This document shows, one piece after another, positions 17,128 to 28,480 of a stretch of DNA of 64,000 nucleotides; the stretch's first letter is position 1; each line of letters starts with the position of its first letter. Position numbers and translations under genes: made by a program. Origin of the DNA: Chloroflexota bacterium (lineage in GTDB: Bacteria; Chloroflexota; Anaerolineae; UBA4142); the NCBI GenBank assembly GCA_016219275.1, contig JACRBM010000016.1, positions 1-64,000 on the forward strand, given 5' to 3'. The notes under the pieces are model-generated. The model was not told the DNA's origin. It worked only from the letters and a program-made list of their open reading frames with translations, and did no database searches.

Positions 17128-18735
17128 GTGTGACTAAAATCAGTTGATTTCAAGTTGTTGGACATGATGAAGCCAGCGCGTGTTCATTGGTGTGCCGTAC
17201 AGTTTTTTGTGCTGTTGCTTGCGTCGGTACTCATGGAACGCTTCCCAATCATCGTTCTCATTCACCGCACGCAAAGCTAATAATGCACCGGCACCCGAGA
17301 GCGTCCAACGCATTCCAGAGAGTTCCATACGATCTTTGACCAAATGTCGGCAAGTTCCCTCGACCACACCCGTGCCGATTGGCCAACCGTGTCGTAGGTA
17401 GTCGGCATAATCCATGTATTCGGTGTTGCGGCGTAAATAGTTGGCGACCTGACCCAGCACTTTTCCAACCGAACTACTTTTCGGCAAGTCACTGGCTTCT
17501 TTCTCTAACCGCTGAATCACACGGTCCGTATGACTGAACAGAATATCCTGCATCTGGGTTTCGACCCAGGTCGCGCGCGTTGCCTCCGTTTCGCCGTAGA
17601 GCGCGGCGCCCGCTTTCCAAAGATGTTCATCCACATGGATGATGTCCAGCACCAAAGTGAACCCGAGCAGTTTGGCGCGCATGTGCTTTTGCAAGGATTC
17701 CGCGCCGTCGGTCAACGCCACGCGTGCGAATGTGAGAACCCGCGCGGCGGCGCACCCATGCCGCCAGCCGTTTGAACGCCGCGTCTTTCCCGTCCAAGCT
17801 AGCGAAGACTTGCTTGTGACAAGGTGCTGGTCGTTGTGGTGGAGCGATGCCTTTCTTGAACAAGGCGTTGACCACATCTTGGGGCGTCCGCCGATAGGGT
17901 GCGATGGTGTAAATGGCTATCGCAATGGTCTCTTTTATGCGGGTCTTTTTGTCGCCTTTGCTCAGGCGCGCTTTGGGCGAGAGCGTTTCCCGGCGCACCA
18001 TGGGCACGCCCTTGCCATCGGCTTGTGCGACCAAGATGTGCTCTTTTTCGGTGGGAAGAAATTTCGGCCGCTGGCGATAGAAGGCTTTCACGGTTTGGCT
18101 GTGTTCGGCGACCTGGGTTTCCAAAGCCAATTCGGGTACGCTCAAGCCCAATAAGCGCGCGAGCACTTGCAAGCTTTTATCGTAGGCGCTGTCCACTGCC
18201 AATAGTTCGGTACTCTCCATCAGCAGGTCGGAATAGCAGCGCTGCGGCAGGCTCATGGCTTGGTCGAGCGGGCACACGCCGGGTTGCCCAGCCGTGTAGA
18301 AATAGGCGCGCGCAAAACTTAATTTGCCAAAGATCGAAAAGTAGTCAATCGGTTTCTGCGAATGGTAGGGCAGTCGAGTCTTGCCCACGCCGGGCTGGGA
18401 CGCGTGAGTTTCGGCTTGGACGCGGGTGGTCACAAATAGTTGGAGCAATTTGAAACCGAGCCGCAACACTTGGCGAAACAAACTGCGTTCCATTTGGTTG
18501 AGCGTAACAGTCTGGGACTGAGACCCTGTGACCAAGCCGAGCAACTTCTCGAAGTCCGCTCGCAATTGCTGAATCATTTGAGTTGAAGTGAGAGACATAC
18601 GACGCCTTCTGGGAATACGTATCTTGTTCAACCCTATCATCCCAGAAGAACGCTTTTCTTTCAACTCAATATATGAATGTCCACACTGATGTGCCCTTGA
18701 GATACTTTGCGCCAATCAACTGATTTTAGTCACAC
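17128..18735 (-). mobile_element. Complete ISKra4-family insertion sequence, 1608 bp
   Basis: The ends are exact 22-bp inverted repeats (17128-17149 and 18714-18735), each beginning GTGTGACTAAAATCAG from outside. One transposase gene reads leftwards and ends 12 bases from the left tip. No adjacent target-site duplication is evident: flanks GAATCG and CCAAAT differ, although ATCAAAT occurs near both sides. Confidence 0.88.
17140..18598 (-). pseudogene. ISKra4-family transposase interrupted by one frameshift
   Basis: The N-terminal part begins MSLTSTQMIQQLRADFEKLL at 18598 and runs to about 17760 (up to FASLDGKDAAFKRLAAW). The C-terminal part, in another frame, continues with ARVLTFARVALTDGAESLQK and LVLDIIHVDEHLWKAG and ends at 17140 with QQLEIN. 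Joined, they give about 486 residues, a normal ISKra4 length. The shift lies at about 17750-17775, in a GC-rich run with no obvious A or T slippery heptamer, so a mutation is more likely than programmed frameshifting. The perfect terminal repeats nevertheless suggest recent movement. Confidence 0.8.
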
Positions 18736-19776: not shown

Positions 19777-20064
19777 CTATTGCGCGTTGTACCTGGCTTG
19801 CACCAACTGCACCGCGAGTTCCGTGCGCGAGCGCGTGCCGGTTTTGACAAAGACCTTGGTCAGGATGTTCTTGACCGTCTTGTCGCTGATGGTGAGTTGA
19901 TATGCGATTTCCTTATTGCTTGCGCCGGTCGCAACGAGCGCGGCGATTTCGCGTTCGCGGCGGGTTAGGATCGAATGATTTTCCATCACCGGTAAATGTC
20001 CTTTCGAGATTCCTGAATCTTTGTATGTAGCTGGCGCATTGCCTGATATCGCGGCAACAGCCAA
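19777..20064 (-). CDS. Small LuxR-type helix-turn-helix protein
   Basis: A 95-residue protein that is almost only a LuxR/FixJ DNA-binding domain. LTRREREIAALVATGASNKE begins near residue 33, then IAYQLTISDKTVKNILTKVF and the dimerisation helix to the end. No receiver or sensor domain precedes it: the first 30 residues are a short non-helical lead. It may be a truncated response regulator or a stand-alone GerE-like regulator. It lies 61 bases downstream of the C25 peptidase gene in the same direction and may be in that transcript. A terminator follows. Confidence 0.75.
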   Translation of the reverse strand: MAVAAISGNAPATYKDSGISKGHLPVMENHSILTRREREIAALVATGASNKEIAYQLTISDKTVKNILTKVFVKTGTRSRTELAVQLVQARYNAQ

Positions 20065-20124: not shown

Positions 20125-23100
20125 TTACCGAACTATCATCGGCAAATAGATGTTCGGAGCCGGCAAATAAAGCCGCGACGCCGGATCACCGAGCAACGTG
20201 AAGGTATCCAATAGATCATGATTTGCGCCGCCGCTGTTTACCCAAAGATACATTTTCCCGGCAATCGCCGCTGGACCAATCTCGCGTATGCGGTCGCGAA
20301 AAACCGCTTGGAAGAATCCGCGATTGAGATAGTCGTGACCGCTTGCCACACCCAGACCGCTTGCCGACCAACTCGCCAACGCGCCGCCGCCGGCAAGACG
20401 AACATTCTTTTCGGCTAAACTGGGCACGCCGGGAAAATGAAAATATCCATCGTAGCATGTCATCGCGAGAAACACCGGCAGTTTGTTCTGGTTGGTCAAC
20501 GCGGGCAGGTCTGCTACACCGAACAATTGTTCCCCCGCCCAAAACTGGATCGCGCTGTGCCCCAAGTAATTCACGATTAGTCGCCCGTCGTTGATTGCCG
20601 CCAGGATTCCGTTTTTCGTCGCCGTGTTCGTGGGATAAGCCGAATATGCCAGCGCGCATTGCGGATAGGTTTGGGAATTACATGGATTAAAATAGATTCG
20701 ATCAACCGTCAGGGTGGATGGCACATAGTTCGAGTTGCCCGCGATTTGATCAGACAAGTTCCAAAAATTTCCGGCATTATCCAGCGTCCCATTCGTTTGG
20801 TACGCATTGTCGCTGACGAATGTAATCGTGGAGCGCCAAGCGCCGCCGGGTGCATTTTGCTCGTAACCCAGGATTTTGTTGACCATCGTCGCGACATCTG
20901 CCGCGCTGTCCGCCGGCAGTCGTCCAATCGCCATGCTGGGAAGCGCGTTGGTCGCGTTGAACGCGACCAACCGATTGTCGCTCGCGGTTTCGCCCGCCCA
21001 GGGGTCTACAAATCGCAAGTACGGCGGAATAAAGTTCGGTTCGCCAAAGCCATAGTTGTTTTTGAAATCAAAGTTGCCGTCGCCGACGAGAAGTACGTAT
21101 GCGGGCGCGGGCGATTGCCAGTTGGTGTACGCCCATTGCAGAAAATCATGGATCGCCTGCGCGTCCATCAGCCCATCGCTGAATTCGTCGTAGACATCCT
21201 GCACATCTACGATTTTGACGCGCATCCCTTGCGCGGTGCGAAAGGTCGCAAGCGGTTGAATGTTGGGTATAAAATCGCCATACGCGATAATGATGTAATC
21301 CGCGCCGTTGCTCGCGTTGCGTAAATCGGAAGGCGAATCCAACGCGATGCTCGCCGGCGATTTGAACTGCGCGGTTGTCAACGCGAGATACGTGCGCGGC
21401 GCTGTGAGCGTGTCCGCGAATTGAAATGTGTAATTTAAGCCGGCTGATGATACCGTCGCGTTCGTAATCTGCGCCACGTCGAAGGGATTCGTAATGTCGA
21501 ATCCTTGGATGGTCGGCAAAGTAAAACCGTTCACTTGATATTGCCATGCGCCGGTTGCCGTTTGCCCGAAACGCCGCGTGTCGCCGATCGCGGTCAGCGT
21601 GCCGGCGTAGCCCACGTCATAATGGTTGATGTCAATCCTATTCGGCGACGGCAAGGATTCTTTGATTCGAATGGTGTTTGTGATGGCATCGAGATAGTTC
21701 TGGGGAAAGTTAAACGCGGCGACGCGCTCGACATTTCCATTCCAGGTCGTATCGTCCAAGAGATGTCCATTGATGTACGTGAGCGTCTGGTGGTCACTCG
21801 CGCTAAAGCCCGCGATGCGAATTTGGAGTGTCGCCGTGAATAAGCCACTCGCAAGGTTCGGCAGCGCAAACGCATAATCCACCGAAGTGGGATCGCCATT
21901 GTGATCCGGGTCATACGGATTGGGCGCACTGAGCCAATACCAGTGATCGCTGTCTTCCGCGCGTGGCAAGTAAGGAATGTACTGCCAGTCCTTCTCCAAA
22001 TGGACACTGGCGGTAAAGGTCGTCACCAGTGTTCCCGTTCCGCTTCCATCGCGTTGCGTCATTCGCTTGCCCGCCGCGCCGCCAAAAGTGAACCAGTAGA
22101 TATTTGTGTTCGTGTATTTCGTGCGCGCTGCTTGTCCATAGAACAAGACAACGTCGCCGCCATCGCAATGACCGTCGTCCTGTCCCAGGACTTGTATCGC
22201 GATTTCATTTCCTTGTTTGAATATCTTCAGCGTGCGCGGATCGAGCGTCGTGAGATTGATGCCCGCGTTCGCGAACTGGGCACAGGTGATTTGATAGATG
22301 CCATCGTCGCTCACGGCGATCTTGTACCAGGGACCGGCGGCGTTGACCTGGGTCGCCCTAGGCGGTCTCACGGCTTGGGTCGGTTTGGCTCGACTCCGCC
22401 AATTCTTCGCCGACGAATAGTTGACGATAGAACGCGCTAACATCGGCTCGAAGAAACCTTCGTTGATCGGTTGACCCAGCATCGATGAACGCGCGCCGCC
22501 AGGGTACGTAAAAGTCAGTTCCACGCGCAGGCGGCGATGAAAAATCAGTTGACGCGACGCCGCGTTGTATTGAAGCGGTGCGAACTCGATTAACGCATAG
22601 CGTTGACTGCGCCAAGTTCCAAACGAGACGAGGCGAACTGTACTCGCAGGATAAACCTGGCTCGTGGAATAAGCAGAGCTATCTGGGATAAACGCGCGTC
22701 CCAGGTAGCGCGGCAGGGTCTGGGTCGGATCGAATTGAACCTGGGTCGTCGGCGCGGGCAGAGACGGATGCGCAAGCACATCGTTGCGTGTTTCGTCGCC
22801 GACGAGACGCAGAGCAACATCTGCGCCCGCGGGAATTCCGACGAGTGTGCCTTTGATCGGAAGTTGTGGTTTGCCGGGCGCATTGGTTTGTCCCAGGTCG
22901 GAGATTGCCAGCGCGATGAATCTGGAGTTGCCAACAGTTTCCACGCGCGAATCGTAGCTGGAGATAACAAGTTCCAAGATGACATGGTTCGCGTCGGACG
23001 CGATTACATTCAACTGCGCTGAAGATGCCGCATTTGCAGACGAACTTGAAACAAAAAATATTCCCATACTAAAGCCAATGGCAACCACGGCATACACCAA

Positions 23101-23160
23101 CCATTGTTTCCAGCGAATCTTCACTGCGCCCGACCTGTGTGCACATTCATCTACAGACAT
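20125..23160 (-). CDS. Secreted C25 (gingipain-like) cysteine peptidase
   Basis: A 1011-residue exported protein. A basic start and hydrophobic segment (about residues 19-45, WLVYAVVAIGFSMGIFF, then SANA) give a signal sequence. Around 200 residues of beta-rich pro-domain follow. The C25 caspase-like domain includes YVLLVGDGNFDFKN near 690, IGRLPADSAADVATMVNKIL near 745, the catalytic histidine in NYLGHS near 868 and the catalytic cysteine in LAMTCYDGYF near 901. It ends LYLPAPNIYLPMIVR, a tail also like that of the propeller protein downstream (VFIPLIKK). Its start overlaps the PqqD-like gene by 10 bases. It is likely a secreted protease acting on proteins or partners of this cluster. Confidence 0.88.
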   Translation of the reverse strand: MSVDECAHRSGAVKIRWKQWLVYAVVAIGFSMGIFFVSSSSANAASSAQLNVIASDANHVILELVISSYDSRVETVGNSRFIALAISDLGQTNAPGKPQLPIKGTLVGIPAGADVALRLVGDETRNDVLAHPSLPAPTTQVQFDPTQTLPRYLGRAFIPDSSAYSTSQVYPASTVRLVSFGTWRSQRYALIEFAPLQYNAASRQLIFHRRLRVELTFTYPGGARSSMLGQPINEGFFEPMLARSIVNYSSAKNWRSRAKPTQAVRPPRATQVNAAGPWYKIAVSDDGIYQITCAQFANAGINLTTLDPRTLKIFKQGNEIAIQVLGQDDGHCDGGDVVLFYGQAARTKYTNTNIYWFTFGGAAGKRMTQRDGSGTGTLVTTFTASVHLEKDWQYIPYLPRAEDSDHWYWLSAPNPYDPDHNGDPTSVDYAFALPNLASGLFTATLQIRIAGFSASDHQTLTYINGHLLDDTTWNGNVERVAAFNFPQNYLDAITNTIRIKESLPSPNRIDINHYDVGYAGTLTAIGDTRRFGQTATGAWQYQVNGFTLPTIQGFDITNPFDVAQITNATVSSAGLNYTFQFADTLTAPRTYLALTTAQFKSPASIALDSPSDLRNASNGADYIIIAYGDFIPNIQPLATFRTAQGMRVKIVDVQDVYDEFSDGLMDAQAIHDFLQWAYTNWQSPAPAYVLLVGDGNFDFKNNYGFGEPNFIPPYLRFVDPWAGETASDNRLVAFNATNALPSMAIGRLPADSAADVATMVNKILGYEQNAPGGAWRSTITFVSDNAYQTNGTLDNAGNFWNLSDQIAGNSNYVPSTLTVDRIYFNPCNSQTYPQCALAYSAYPTNTATKNGILAAINDGRLIVNYLGHSAIQFWAGEQLFGVADLPALTNQNKLPVFLAMTCYDGYFHFPGVPSLAEKNVRLAGGGALASWSASGLGVASGHDYLNRGFFQAVFRDRIREIGPAAIAGKMYLWVNSGGANHDLLDTFTLLGDPASRLYLPAPNIYLPMIVR

Positions 23161-23621
23161 TGTCCGGTGGTCTGATTGATAATGCCTGAACAGCAGGGAC
23201 GGCTAGCGGTTGGGTATTCACCCGGGAGGGCACAGCCGCCCGCCTGCGCCGGCGTCGGCGCGACAATAGAGGCGATGATTGGCACGGTGATTGTCGTGGC
23301 GACTAACCCCGCTCGCTTTATAAACTCCCGTCGAGTGATGCGCGCTAATTCGTCCGGCAAAGTAATCGGCGTTTGCAACAAATGTTGCTTGTCGAGTTGC
23401 CCAAGACCATACCACACCACTTGCGGGTCCATTGCCAACAATCGCGCAATGTCCGAGATAGAGTGTTTACCGTCACAGTGTTTCCAGATAATCGCGGCGG
23501 TCGGGTTCAAGCAATGCGCGGCGTTTCGCTCGTGGTCATAGACCATCGTTTCGCCATCCAAGTCTTCGACATCCAGCCCTGCCACGCGAGCATCGGGCAA
23601 AATTGATTCGCTTGTGTTCAT
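23151..23621 (-). CDS. PqqD-like domain fused to a Tat signal and a cysteine-rich tail
   Basis: A 156-residue protein of unusual build. Residues 1-90 are a PqqD-like winged helix (MVYDHERNAAHCLNPTAAII, then the ISDIARLL helix). Residues 93-125 are a twin-arginine-type segment (TRREFIKRAGLVATTITVPI followed by PTPAQA). The last 30 residues form a tail with five cysteines (GGCALPGEYPTASRPCC and GQCL). PqqD proteins normally deliver RiPP precursor peptides to radical-SAM or other enzymes. Here the PqqD domain precedes the Tat motif in the same chain, which would place the tail outside the cell. The stop overlaps the peptidase start and the upstream kinase-like gene ends one base away. Confidence 0.8.
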   Translation of the reverse strand: MNTSESILPDARVAGLDVEDLDGETMVYDHERNAAHCLNPTAAIIWKHCDGKHSISDIARLLAMDPQVVWYGLGQLDKQHLLQTPITLPDELARITRREFIKRAGLVATTITVPIIASIVAPTPAQAGGCALPGEYPTASRPCCSGIINQTTGQCL

Positions 23622-23622
23622 A

Positions 23623-24453
23623 TTACCTCCAGGATGAATACTTGTTCAGAATTGAATCTACGACGTGCCTCGCTTCGCCGCGCGCGCTTTTGAGCACCGG
23701 CGCGCGCGTGACGATCTGTCGAAAGATGGGCAACATCTGCGCGGGCTTGCTACGCGCCGCGATCGTGTGGGCAACCAGCGCGAGCGCGCCATGCCCAGGC
23801 GAAAGTCGTTGCGGTCGCCACTGCGCGCGCGCGCGATATTCGCTCACCAAAATCATACCGACGGGTAATGGCGCGTCGCCGGCTTGACCGCCGAAATGTT
23901 CGACAGGATAATTGTTGGCGCGTCCATCGAGTCCATCGCGCACCGACAGCCATTTCGGATATGGATGCACGCGCCCGCGCGCATCGAACACGGCGTACTC
24001 GTCCGAATAGTAGGTTGCCCCGGCGCGCACGAACTCGGCGACGAGCGTGGTCTTGCCGCTCATGCTTCGCCCTGGGATGACGATGGCTTGCCCTTGCCAG
24101 CCCACCACTCCCGCATGAACAAACAGTCTGCGGTGCGCGTGCTCGGCGACATACCGTTGCAAGTCCGCTTCGAACGCGATGAGTAGATCGCTCACAGTTA
24201 GGGAGCGCGCGAGTTGCGTGTGATCGCCGTAGAACAAATTGAAATGCCGGATTCGCGACGACAGACTCGGCTTTCCCAGGATGAGCGAATAAAGTCGGTC
24301 AACAATGAGCGAGTTCATCGGCTTGCGCCGCGGCGGCAGGCACGCATCAATTTGTTGGAGTGCCTGCGGCGCGTTCGTCCGAATTCCAATCCGAACTCCA
24401 TGACTCACAAAAGCCATGCTTGCCACCCAGTCCAGGGTGTCCAACTTTTTCAT
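23623..24453 (-). CDS. HPr-kinase-like (HprK-related) protein
   Basis: A 276-residue protein with HprK-type C-terminal fold. The P-loop VIPGRSMSGKTTLVAEFVRA lies near residue 130, then YYSDEYAVFD near 150 matches the second conserved region. The N-terminal half has the LFVHAGVVGWQGQAIV lead-in of HprK-related proteins. Such proteins occur with PqqD and sulfotransferase or lasso-type biosynthetic clusters, where their substrate is mostly unknown. It probably phosphorylates a serine or a peptide of this cluster, possibly the adjacent PqqD-Tat protein (inference). It is first of a tight three-gene operon with that protein and the C25 peptidase. Confidence 0.75.
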   Translation of the reverse strand: MKKLDTLDWVASMAFVSHGVRIGIRTNAPQALQQIDACLPPRRKPMNSLIVDRLYSLILGKPSLSSRIRHFNLFYGDHTQLARSLTVSDLLIAFEADLQRYVAEHAHRRLFVHAGVVGWQGQAIVIPGRSMSGKTTLVAEFVRAGATYYSDEYAVFDARGRVHPYPKWLSVRDGLDGRANNYPVEHFGGQAGDAPLPVGMILVSEYRARAQWRPQRLSPGHGALALVAHTIAARSKPAQMLPIFRQIVTRAPVLKSARGEARHVVDSILNKYSSWR

Positions 24454-24760: not shown

Positions 24761-27700
24761 TTATTTCTTGATGAGAGGTATAAACACCGGAATCGTTCCG
24801 CGTGGCATCGCGGTTGTGATCGGACCATACGTCGTCCGCGCGCCATTCCGCGCGATTTCGACGAGACGGTATTGCGCCGTTTGTCCTTCAGGAACCGACG
24901 TGTCTCTCACGGAATAGAGCGCCCCGCCCCCCGCGCCTTTCGCGGGAATGAACGCGCCGACCGGCGAAAAGGTCTTGCCATCCAACGCGCGTTCGAGTTG
25001 AAAACCGGACGTATCCACTTCCGTCATGGTTTGCCATTCGACCGTAATCCCCGTCGCATCCGGTTTGGCTTCCAAGCGCGCGAGTGTAACTGCCGTTGGC
25101 GTGTTAGGACCGATTCCAAAGGTCGAGAACGAGGACACACTGGCTTGGACATAGACCCCATTCGCATCACTGCCGCCCGTGCCAGAAATTTTTTCCCAAC
25201 CGGTACTGCTGTTGCAATGGAAGATCGCCAAGTTGTATGGACTTGATGTTGTGTTTCCATTTGCCTCATTCGGGTTGCTGGCGGAAAAGTACAGCCGCAT
25301 CGTATATGTTCCGCCTACCTGCTGTGGTACGATGTCGAACAACTTCAAGACCGGAGTTCCAGACAACGTAGTTGTTCCACAAGTCGTTGGTTGGAGATTC
25401 GACGTAACGGTCACCGCCGTCGTCCAAAGACTAACTCCTGCCGTTTTGGTCAGTAGCACTGCATCGCGATTCCGGGCATCCTTGAATGTCCAGGTGTTAT
25501 AGTTGATGATATACTGGGACGGCGTTTCGCGGCGCAGTTTGCCATTCTGAATGAACTGGGTACAACTGCCGCCGGTGGCGGCGCTGATAAAGTCATCCGT
25601 CACGTCCACCGTGGTGTTGGCGTTGATGGTGATATTGCAGAAAGCGAGTGTGCCTTCGGTTTGGGTTGGCAAATTCACCGTGACGACGCCGTTCTTGGCA
25701 AAGACGACTGTGCCGGTGCCGGCGTTCCAAGTTCCGCTTGTGGTCCAGTTCCCATTCACAGTCAGCGTCGAACTGCCAGCATTCCAGGTTCCACTAGAGA
25801 GATTGAAATCATTGATTGTTAGTGTCGAACTATTCGCGTTCCAGGTTCCGCCATAGAGATTCATATTACCGGCGGTCATCGTCCAACTGTTGGCATTCCA
25901 GGTGGTGCCGTTGTACAGAGACACATCGCTCGTGGTGATATTACCAACCACATTCAGCGTCACATTCTTGTTGACGGTTACACTTTCCGAATAAGTTCCG
26001 GCGTAGACGGTTACTGTTCCGCCGGTCCTGACATTGTTCATCGCTTCGTTAATCGTCGCGTAGCAGGGTATGTTACCGCCGCACACCAAATCGTCATCGG
26101 CATATACATTTGTTTGCGTCGGTGGGGTAAGGTCCGCGGTCCATGCGCCGCGTCCATGGGTGCCAGCAATCAACACGGTTGTACCAGTACTGTTTCCGCC
26201 GCCCATCCATTGCAAGTCCTCCACAGCAACGTTGGCAGGACCATCGCCGTTGCGCCCGGTTCCGGTGGGCACATTCCAGGTCGCGCCCGTATCTACGCTG
26301 GCAAAGATACCAATCTCGGTGCCAACATAAAGCCAGGCACTGTTGCTGGGATTGATCGCCACTGCATAGATTGGTACTTGCGGCAGATTGCTGGTGATGC
26401 TGGTCCAAGTTGTCCCGCCATCCGTTGTACGCCAGAGGCGATTTGTACCAAAGCCGTTAAATCCCACATAGACGATACTGCTATTGTTCTTATCAATCGC
26501 GATACTGCCTATCTGCGTCCCAGGATTATTTGCGCCGATATTTGTATCGACGCGCGTCCAGGTTGGCGTGGTACTTGTCCCATTCGTCGTCATGTAAATT
26601 TGGCTGTTTTTGTGACCCACCCAAATCACGTTCGAGTTGCTCGGTGCAATGGCGATTGCATTGATTCCACTACCAATCGAAGACTTAATCGCCGTCCATT
26701 GCGGACCACCTGTCAGACTGTTATAGACGTACGGCGTCCGAACATCGTTGCTAACCCAGAGCGAAAGGTCGCCTACGAAAAGCCGATTGGCGTTATTAGG
26801 ATCGAGCAGGATAGGCGCAATGAAACTACCTACCCTATTGCACGCGTCGTCAATCCGATACGGTGCCGCGCGGCAAGTCCAGGCACTACCGTCCCAATAG
26901 GTCCCCCAAATGGAATCTGAATCACCCACTCCACCAGTGTCGGAGCGATGCACTTGACCGTAGATATACTCATTGTAGAGGTAATTAGGATTCGTCGGAT
27001 CAGCGGCGGACTTGCCACCATCACCACCACTAAAAAAGGTCCAAGCATTGGCTCCGCCGGCAGGAGTGTACACCGTTGCCCCATTATCCTGACTGCCGCC
27101 GATCAAGACACCGTTGTTGTTGCCTGCGACGCCGTAGAATTGCGTAATGCCCAGGTTGTTGTTCATATAGACCCAACCCAGGTTCATATCCGCATTCGTC
27201 CCAGCCGTGGTGATATCGGCGGTATAGTACATGCCTCCATCGTTGCCATTGAGCAGGGCGAGGTTAGAGCCGGGTATAGATACAAGCGCGTGATGATCGG
27301 CATGGGGTGAGGGTGGGTTTCTATAATGCCATGAATAACCCCAGTAAGCGATCTTGGTAAACGTCGCTCCACCGTCAGTGGACTTGTACATATCCACACC
27401 GGCGACGACGACAAAGTTCGGGTCGTCTGGTTTCACCCAAATCGCGTTGTCGTAATCGCCTTGAGTAGCCAGTAACTGCTGACCCGTGTTCACGCGGGTG
27501 TAGGTATGTCCACCATCCGTACTCTTGTACACGTCACCCGAGTTTTGATTCACACTGGCATAAACGATGGAGGGATTACTGGGCGAGTATGCCAGCTCAA
27601 CGCGTCCAGAGATGGCGGGAGTGAAGGTCGCGGCTGCCCAGCCAGATGCACCGCCACCTGTCGTATACCAAGAGTAACCGACCGCGCCAGCCACGGCGTT

Positions 27701-28480
27701 ATTGCTGTTCGTCGGGTCAAATTTTACATCCCGCCAGCTAGTGGTCACGCGTCGCGTCCAAGAAGTGCCGCCATCGGTACTGTGATAGAGACCGGTGCCG
27801 GTCGCCGCCAGCAGATTTGCGCCATTTTGTGAGATAGCGAGCCGGTTCACAAAATACCACTGATCGTTGTTCGTGCTGGTGAGTTGGGTCCAGGTGGTAC
27901 CACCGTCCGTACTCTTGAAAACCCCTGCCCCGCGAAAGCCGGTGCCCGAGGTTTCACCCGTGCCGGCGTACATCACGTTGGCGTTGGTCGGATCCACGAT
28001 CAAACTACTGATCCCCAGGTTCGCCATCCAATCGTCAATCGACGACCAAGTGGTGCTGGTCGAACAGCAGTTGGTTGTCTTCCAGAGACCGCCAGAGACA
28101 CTGCCGATAAATACAGTACTGGCACTGAGCGGCAGAATCGAGCGGATACGCCCGCCAACATTGCTTGGACCAGCAAAAGTCCAACTCACATTATCAATGC
28201 CGGCTACGCGTGGCGCACGCGCGTGCTGTTGCACCATGGACTTGCGCGTGTTCAGCGCATTGATGAGCGCACCATCGGGAATCTGTCCGCTCTTGTCTTT
28301 CATCTGATCAAAGCGCCATTGAAAGTATTCCTCAATGGTCGCGGCTTCGTTTTCTTCTCCTTGCTCGACGGATTGCGCGTTCCATACGGCAGAATTCGAG
28401 AACGCGAAGAACAACCCGCCCATAATCGTCAATAGGACAAAAAGGATTCGCCGATTGGTTAAGGAAAACAGCTTGGACAT
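24761..28480 (-). CDS. Giant secreted Asp-box (sortilin/VPS10-like) beta-propeller protein
   Basis: A 1239-residue exported protein with a signal/anchor helix at about residues 9-30. From about 95 to 800 there are many Asp-box repeats (STDGGTTWTQL, STDGGTSWTRR, STDGGHTYTRV, TTDGGTTWTSI), the BNR/sortilin ten-bladed type. Residues about 820-960 are a short right-handed solenoid with repeats GTWNANSWTMTAGNMNLYG and GTWNAGSSTLTVNGNW. A C-terminal FN3-like domain starts ITVEWQTMTEVDTSGFQLER near 1145 and ends VFIPLIKK. Such proteins bind surfaces, glycans or partner proteins; no enzyme motif was seen. It lies downstream of the small inhibitor-like lipoprotein in one transcript. Confidence 0.85.
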   Translation of the reverse strand: MSKLFSLTNRRILFVLLTIMGGLFFAFSNSAVWNAQSVEQGEENEAATIEEYFQWRFDQMKDKSGQIPDGALINALNTRKSMVQQHARAPRVAGIDNVSWTFAGPSNVGGRIRSILPLSASTVFIGSVSGGLWKTTNCCSTSTTWSSIDDWMANLGISSLIVDPTNANVMYAGTGETSGTGFRGAGVFKSTDGGTTWTQLTSTNNDQWYFVNRLAISQNGANLLAATGTGLYHSTDGGTSWTRRVTTSWRDVKFDPTNSNNAVAGAVGYSWYTTGGGASGWAAATFTPAISGRVELAYSPSNPSIVYASVNQNSGDVYKSTDGGHTYTRVNTGQQLLATQGDYDNAIWVKPDDPNFVVVAGVDMYKSTDGGATFTKIAYWGYSWHYRNPPSPHADHHALVSIPGSNLALLNGNDGGMYYTADITTAGTNADMNLGWVYMNNNLGITQFYGVAGNNNGVLIGGSQDNGATVYTPAGGANAWTFFSGGDGGKSAADPTNPNYLYNEYIYGQVHRSDTGGVGDSDSIWGTYWDGSAWTCRAAPYRIDDACNRVGSFIAPILLDPNNANRLFVGDLSLWVSNDVRTPYVYNSLTGGPQWTAIKSSIGSGINAIAIAPSNSNVIWVGHKNSQIYMTTNGTSTTPTWTRVDTNIGANNPGTQIGSIAIDKNNSSIVYVGFNGFGTNRLWRTTDGGTTWTSITSNLPQVPIYAVAINPSNSAWLYVGTEIGIFASVDTGATWNVPTGTGRNGDGPANVAVEDLQWMGGGNSTGTTVLIAGTHGRGAWTADLTPPTQTNVYADDDLVCGGNIPCYATINEAMNNVRTGGTVTVYAGTYSESVTVNKNVTLNVVGNITTSDVSLYNGTTWNANSWTMTAGNMNLYGGTWNANSSTLTINDFNLSSGTWNAGSSTLTVNGNWTTSGTWNAGTGTVVFAKNGVVTVNLPTQTEGTLAFCNITINANTTVDVTDDFISAATGGSCTQFIQNGKLRRETPSQYIINYNTWTFKDARNRDAVLLTKTAGVSLWTTAVTVTSNLQPTTCGTTTLSGTPVLKLFDIVPQQVGGTYTMRLYFSASNPNEANGNTTSSPYNLAIFHCNSSTGWEKISGTGGSDANGVYVQASVSSFSTFGIGPNTPTAVTLARLEAKPDATGITVEWQTMTEVDTSGFQLERALDGKTFSPVGAFIPAKGAGGGALYSVRDTSVPEGQTAQYRLVEIARNGARTTYGPITTAMPRGTIPVFIPLIKK

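Follow-up and report, generated by a model that had tools for sequence, protein, structure and literature searches.

RiPP recognition elements (RREs; RiPP, ribosomally synthesized and post-translationally modified peptide) have been known either as stand-alone domains or as parts of enzymes, recognising a leader peptide in trans. On RRE-guided precursors, the kinases LppK and PadeK phosphorylate a serine residue, and PsmN, annotated as a nucleotidyltransferase, adds hexoses to phosphoserine (PMC9266682, PMC13381572). In the linear polyphosphorylated peptides (LPP) of Popov et al. 2026, the phosphosite is Ser3 of the core (PMC13381572). Here we analysed a three-gene operon of a Chloroflexota bacterium, located on contig JACRBM010000016.1 (the window, that is, the whole stretch of 64,000 nucleotides that was analysed). 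An HprK-like gene is followed by a gene that joins in one frame a PqqD/RRE domain, a twin-arginine translocation (Tat) signal and a cysteine-bearing tail, and then by the gene of a C25 peptidase. The middle protein belongs to a family, hereafter PqqD-Tat, of which 94 proteins were catalogued. The system looks widespread and apparently undescribed, and resembles a novel route by which ribosomal peptides are built, modified and exported; no description of the fusion or of the operon was found in the literature searched, subscription journals lying outside this coverage. Its enzymes are of known kind, and it is the design of the substrate (RRE in cis, Tat signal, hypervariable and often knottin-like tails) that is new as far as checked.

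The closest known system to the PqqD-Tat family is LPP. Shared features are an HprK-like kinase, an RRE and, at most loci though not in the window operon, an NTP transferase, and a precursor with a conserved N-terminal part, a highly variable C-terminus and a serine near the N-terminus of the core (PMC13381572). The LPP leader is removed by a signal-peptidase-type enzyme (PMC13381572), a step whose counterpart is predicted for PqqD-Tat proteins. The LPP RRE, however, is discrete and binds a YxxP leader, whereas the PqqD-Tat RRE is fused to signal and tail in one frame. LPP uses a dedicated SipW-like peptidase and an MsbA-like exporter in place of a Tat signal, and descriptions of LPP and paeninodins confine both to Bacillota, whereas PqqD-Tat spans at least nine other phyla, with tails that are mostly disulfide-rich by composition. 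By inspection, the LPP leader motif YxxPxVLxHQxIxFETxxS was absent from the window protein and the listed relatives; no SipW-like peptidase or MsbA-like exporter was recognised by eye among the neighbouring open reading frames (ORFs) of the window, where no dedicated search was run.

Phosphorylated lasso peptide pathways have a PqqD-like B1 RRE, and the PqqD domain of the acidobacterial PqqD-Tat protein L123 superposes on the lasso B1 protein TbiB1. Pathways of the paeninodin and pseudomycoidin type also share the HprK-like kinase (PadeK, PsmK) and the nucleotidyltransferase PsmN (PMC9266682). They differ in that the PqqD-Tat RRE and its substrate form one chain and a separate short lasso precursor is missing; neither a cyclase nor a B2 protease was recognised in the PqqD-Tat loci inspected, without a dedicated search. 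Judging from model names, the SynChlorMet cassette (ScmC/ScmD) and the HPr-rel-A system of NCBIfam likewise pair an HprK-like with a PqqD-like protein, but the window scores far below their cut-offs (30 against 100 and 58 against 200) and those PqqD models have no Tat tail. Proteusin (NHLP/Nif11) leaders originate from nitrile hydratase or Nif11 instead of an RRE, and their export is not known to use Tat. What they have in common with PqqD-Tat is a folded domain acting as leader for a variable core (PMC10858898).

All three genes of the operon lie on the minus strand, in the order HprK-like, PqqD-Tat, C25, at positions that confirm those of an earlier sequence-only reading of this DNA. The PqqD-Tat gene (23151-23621) encodes 156 amino acids. 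Its product matches the PqqD family PF05402 (2.8e-7, 31.2 bits, cut-off 23.4) through a predicted cytoplasmic domain of about residues 1-93 (23343-23621), which holds two cysteines (37 and 49). There follows a twin-arginine signal segment (residues 94-127, ARITRREFIKR...APTPAQA, 23241-23342), in which R97, R98 and P122 are invariant and cleavage is predicted after A127. Twin arginines, a hydrophobic core, an A-x-A site and a TatC encoded in the host genome (7e-57) provide the features of a Tat substrate. The topology proposed in the sequence-only reading, PqqD domain inside and tail outside, is what such a signal predicts.

A protein search of 298 genomes of the class retrieved full-length PqqD-Tat homologues from about a dozen other genomes. 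Because alignment A2 was too divergent for a scan of genome contigs, GTDB loci were fetched with the HprK protein alone as bait. These added many members, from Acidobacteriota, Gemmatimonadota, Chloroflexota, Armatimonadota, Abditibacteriota, Cyanobacteriota, Pseudomonadota (Rhizobiales), Myxococcota, Calditrichota and Rokuibacteriota, with one locus sitting on a Gemmatirosa plasmid. In the family alignment, the PqqD domain is conserved, the RR pair is invariant (25/25 and 31/31 aligned relatives) and the hydrophobic stretch ends in APxPAxA, while the tails that follow share almost nothing; A-x-A-type signal-peptidase sites were present in 94 of 102 members. The AlphaFold2 model of L123 (predicted local distance difference test, pLDDT, 88; about 90 in the tail) shows strands at 17-21, 25-30 and 35-40, then helices at 41-49, 56-67 and 74-86, in a bbb-aaa winged-helix arrangement, and its first part matched the lasso RRE TbiB1 (5v1v) in a fold search with a target template-modelling score of 0.75. 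NCBIfam holds no model for this architecture, and members match its PqqD models only below cut-off. The chain of PqqD domain, Tat segment and Cys tail noted in the sequence-only reading makes up a real protein family, and conservation of the fusion in the 94 catalogued proteins rules out a gene-call artefact of two fused genes. Two apparent Tat-tail micro-genes standing separately beside C25 genes (G237:C203 and C439) turned out to be PqqD-Tat genes cut by contig ends.

The tail, predicted to be secreted, behaves as cargo on a conserved chassis. In the window it would comprise, after the predicted A-x-A site, the 29 residues GGCALPGEYPTASRPCCSGIINQTTGQCL (23154-23240), with cysteines at 130, 143, 144 and 155, that is, four and not the five counted earlier. 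Catalogued tails (n=94) have a median length of 37 residues and contain 12.6% cysteine, against 1.4% in the chassis; an odd cysteine count was found in only 5 of the 86 Cys-bearing tails. The knottin pattern C-C-CC-C-C occurred in 40 of the 94 tails, whereas shuffled sets of tails gave 3.5 on average and never more than 9. The modelled L123 tail superposed on the knottins 5fzv (0.4 Å, 25 residues) and 1hvw (0.8 Å, 44% identity), these being short matches with E-values near 2. While many relatives show the six-Cys order of knottins, the four-Cys tail of the window does not; it aligns to the six-Cys frame without the second and fifth cysteines, the same reduced pattern as in L175 from Armatimonadota. 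Tandem cyanobacterial copies (Okeania L159, Richelia L168) share 76-100% of their DNA sequence as far as the end of the signal, beyond which identity drops to background level. Hypervariable, exchanged tails on a conserved chassis suggest cargo rather than a functional domain. Position +2 of the mature tail, as parsed, is Ser or Thr in 64% of members, against 20% in control signal peptides. Members without Ser or Thr in the first four residues were few, most of them shifted by the site parser, and all 14 Cys-poor tails have one within +1 to +4.

Two further observations concern the tails. The cyanobacterial PqqD-Tat genes L159 6831-8350, L168 6849-8146 and L165 6831-7481 have near-identical chassis DNA and unrelated tails, as if cores had been swapped at the end of the signal. 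Thr/Pro-rich, collagen-like GATGAT or Gly-rich tails are found instead of Cys-rich ones in L067, L063, L072-L074, L076, L078, L079, L081 and L105.

The HprK-like gene (23623-24453, 276 amino acids) is separated from the PqqD-Tat gene by 1 base. Its product carries a conserved H113, a Walker-A motif (P-loop) GRSMSGKT at residues 128-135 (24049-24072), of which G133 and K134 are invariant in the HprK alignment, and S150-D151-E152; the His, P-loop and SDE motifs are kept across the subfamily. Scores remained below cut-off for HprK_rel_A (TIGR04352; 7e-16, 58.1 bits, cut-off 200) and for the HPr(Ser) kinase equivalog TIGR00679 (11.4 bits, cut-off 240). A search of PDB sequences with the HprK profile gave no matches, and a fold search was therefore used, in which the AlphaFold2 model (pLDDT 91) matched phosphoenolpyruvate carboxykinase (PEPCK) and HPr kinase/phosphatase. 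As modelled, the protein is an enzyme of PEPCK/HprK fold, and its P-loop, His and Asp motifs agree with membership of this superfamily. Its best identity, 55%, was to an acidobacterial protein, outside the other Chloroflexota clades; this support was too weak to claim acquisition from Acidobacteriota.

The HprK-like enzyme is a standing partner of PqqD-Tat. In the class sample, 13 genomes had both the HprK subfamily and PqqD-Tat, 1 had PqqD-Tat only, 3 had HprK only and 282 had neither (Fisher 4e-19, the genomes not being independent); HprK was present in 13/14 PqqD-Tat carriers versus 3/285 other genomes. One of the three HprK-only genomes (G269) carries an apparent PqqD-Tat tail cut by a contig end. 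The search for family proteins near HprK-like genes that the sequence-only reading had proposed did not yield random neighbours: in 48 of 80 HprK loci the fetched DNA held a full PqqD-Tat gene, 42 times downstream on the same strand. An NTP_transf_5 gene (PF14907 confirmed) was near HprK in 54 of the 80 loci, and in the majority of relatives it adjoins the gene pair, usually as the next gene. Where the HprK locus lacked PqqD-Tat (24 genomes), about 19 genomes have full-length copies elsewhere, often with NTP_transf_5 as the following gene. All 34 genomes of a further HprK set, drawn from many phyla and partly overlapping these 24, carry PqqD-Tat. In the host genome (6.16 Mb, 98% complete), only one PqqD-Tat gene is full-length, and the HprK subfamily is likewise represented by one gene. 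Several other genomes combine one HprK-like gene with multiple scattered PqqD-Tat genes (five in G155), which fits one enzyme serving many substrates.

We propose a RiPP-like pathway with the RRE in cis, cytosolic modification by the HprK-like enzyme, Tat export, release by signal peptidase and C25 as an extracellular accessory, and regard it as a slightly better than even prospect. Modification of the tail in the cytosol is suggested because HprK-like kinases and nucleotidyltransferases tailor RRE-guided peptides, and because the +2 Ser/Thr recalls Ser3 of LPP. The PqqD-Tat protein would be a ribosomal precursor with a built-in recognition element, its N-terminal PqqD/RRE domain serving as a handle for cytosolic tailoring enzymes, the HprK-like kinase above all and, in most loci, the NTP_transf_5 enzyme. 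The C-terminal tail would be phosphorylated, and may receive a sugar or nucleotide, most likely at the Ser/Thr around +2. The loaded chain would then be exported by Tat and cut at A-x-A by signal peptidase; the PqqD domain and signal would stay behind and a small, often disulfide-rich tail would be released. Outside, the secreted C25 peptidase may act on the target of the tail, on competing proteins or in further trimming.

Several results weigh against this pathway. Taken alone, the window protein scored 13.8 with the Tat model TIGR01409, below its cut-off of 16.7. Its tail has Gly-Gly before the first cysteine (23235-23240), with Gly at +2, where nearly all relatives have Ser or Thr. NTP_transf_5 is absent from the window operon, with copies elsewhere in the host genome, and the window member may accordingly be degenerate or modified elsewhere. 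Two HprK genomes (G176 and G093) show only a stand-alone PqqD. Finally, the literature searched offered no tested precedent for an RRE fused to its own substrate, and the domain may no longer bind anything. As the window member has no +2 Ser/Thr, four cysteines and no adjacent NTP_transf_5, it is mainly the relatives that support the general mechanism.

Alternatively, the fusion may be an export checkpoint in cis, in which the PqqD domain masks the Tat signal in the manner of a redox enzyme maturation protein (REMP)-type chaperone and export is switched on when the HprK-like enzyme phosphorylates this domain rather than the tail. In all members the PqqD domain directly adjoins the RR motif, and the HprK-like enzyme is present even with Cys-poor repeat or Gly-rich tails, as such a switch would have it. 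We nevertheless consider it unlikely: conservation of Ser/Thr at +2 in an otherwise hypervariable segment points to the tail, NTP_transf_5 has no evident role in a switch of this kind, and the trio of HprK, NTP_transf_5 and RRE is documented in LPP and lasso pathways as a substrate-modifying set.

A more doubtful possibility is an adaptor role: the uncleaved PqqD-Tat protein would remain anchored in the membrane, its tail acting in the periplasm or outside the cell as a redox or binding module while its PqqD domain recruits another peptide in trans. In favour are the usual action of RREs in trans (PMC7470986) and the shortness of the window tail, which has no more than four cysteines. Hypervariable, swapped tails on a conserved chassis nonetheless fit cargo better, A-x-A-type sites are nearly general in the family, and the genomes with many PqqD-Tat genes and a single HprK-like gene also argue against an adaptor.

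The remaining partner of our proposed pathway is the C25 peptidase (20125-23160, 1011 amino acids), which has a Sec-type signal peptide and a propeptide, and ends in IYLPMIVR. The overlap of 10 bases with the PqqD-Tat gene and the 1-base gap noted in the sequence-only reading both hold, the overlap on condition that translation starts at the ATG; with an alternative GTG start at codon 13, behind an AGG-rich stretch, it would vanish. The protein matches PF01364 Peptidase_C25 (4e-92) and Propeptide_C25, and its catalytic dyad, H868 (20557-20559) and C902 (20455-20457) within the segment 20455-20559, pairs in an alignment with the His and Cys of gingipain R (1cvr). It thus resembles gingipains and PorU in catalytic domain, propeptide domain and aligned dyad, but it remains below the PorU cut-off (314 bits against 420), its host is a Chloroflexota and its gene is linked to an RRE/HprK system. 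A search for SprA of the type IX secretion system gave no match in its own genome, nor did the control. C25 is a recurrent accessory of the PqqD-Tat system, as the sequence-only reading had assumed of a partner, and is not universal. Fifteen of 38 C25 genes lay no more than 6 kb from a PqqD-Tat gene, the expected number being 0.18. In related Anaerolineae the C25 gene is immediately downstream, and in Calditrichota (L184) it stands between HprK and PqqD-Tat. Among the 34 further HprK genomes, 18 had C25 above cut-off and 16 had none.

In the earlier scheme, the HprK-like protein would act as the kinase of the chain, and the secreted C25 would cleave off the tail. The genuine conserved three-gene system on which it was built has held up; the NTP_transf_5 partner and the hypervariability of the tail had been missed. 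The frequent adjacency of C25 speaks for such a release. We judge it improbable, since C25 is lacking in about half of the system genomes, the ordinary signal-peptidase-type site found in nearly every member would suffice, and 9 of 13 C25-adjacent tails contain no Lys or Arg, a scarcity confounded with tail type. Characterised gingipains cut at Lys/Arg. Selection by C25 against these residues (4/446 near C25 versus 210/3960) was rejected, the difference being gone among tails of at most 35 amino acids. That the genes are chance neighbours with no functional link is refuted by gene order and co-occurrence across at least nine phyla; no support for it was found, and its probability is negligible.

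A recurrent ending of secreted Chloroflexota proteins is a [FY]-L-P-x-[IV]-x-[KR]-like motif (IYLPMIVR, VFIPLIKK, KFYFPLISR). Carriers include the C25 protein and the product of 24761-28480 in the window, as well as proteins of L083, L084, L090, L092, L093, L102, L106 and L109. The motif ended 13 of 622 ORFs of at least 250 amino acids and, when sought 20 residues before the end, was found in 1 of 622; it is possibly a C-terminal sorting signal. The same-strand neighbour immediately upstream of the HprK-like gene (24761-28480) encodes a large secreted BNR/sortilin-repeat protein (PF15902). By eye only, an ORF for a 95-residue LuxR-type helix-turn-helix protein (19777-20064, same strand) was seen directly downstream of the C25 gene, and frameshifted or overlapping transposase-like ORFs at 17140-18715, close to the downstream end of the operon, may have contributed to its movement. 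More distant modules were also observed. In one (L089, L090, L107-L110), from other families of the class, an HprK-like protein of about 390 residues stands beside C25, a stand-alone PqqD and sometimes NTP_transf_5. Another (L082-L084 on contigs C58 and C89 of the same genome, and L102) contains radical SAM/SPASM, PqqD and kinase-like proteins, NTP_transf_5, C25 peptidases and large secreted proteins.

We give about an even chance to the view that these loci define a new class of ribosomal peptide pathway, spanning at least nine phyla, in which an RRE within the precursor is a disposable Tat leader, one kinase serves many exchangeable cores in a genome, and disulfide-knotted mini-proteins are modified and exported by Tat. 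Among PF05402 proteins, 21% exceed the size of a discrete RRE without another domain (PMC12710340). If our reading is true, part of this large unannotated over-length class would be explained, and an RRE welded to its substrate and discarded at Tat export would contrast with the elements described so far. Searches for RiPP precursors would then change, because current finders look for short peptides near an RRE. The family would also offer a secretion chassis that is modular by nature and has a well-defined site for exchanging the cargo. It would tie the HprK-like kinases and NTP_transf_5 enzymes of Acidobacteriota, Chloroflexota, Gemmatimonadota, Cyanobacteriota and others to concrete substrates, and give a functional context to C25 peptidases outside Bacteroidota.

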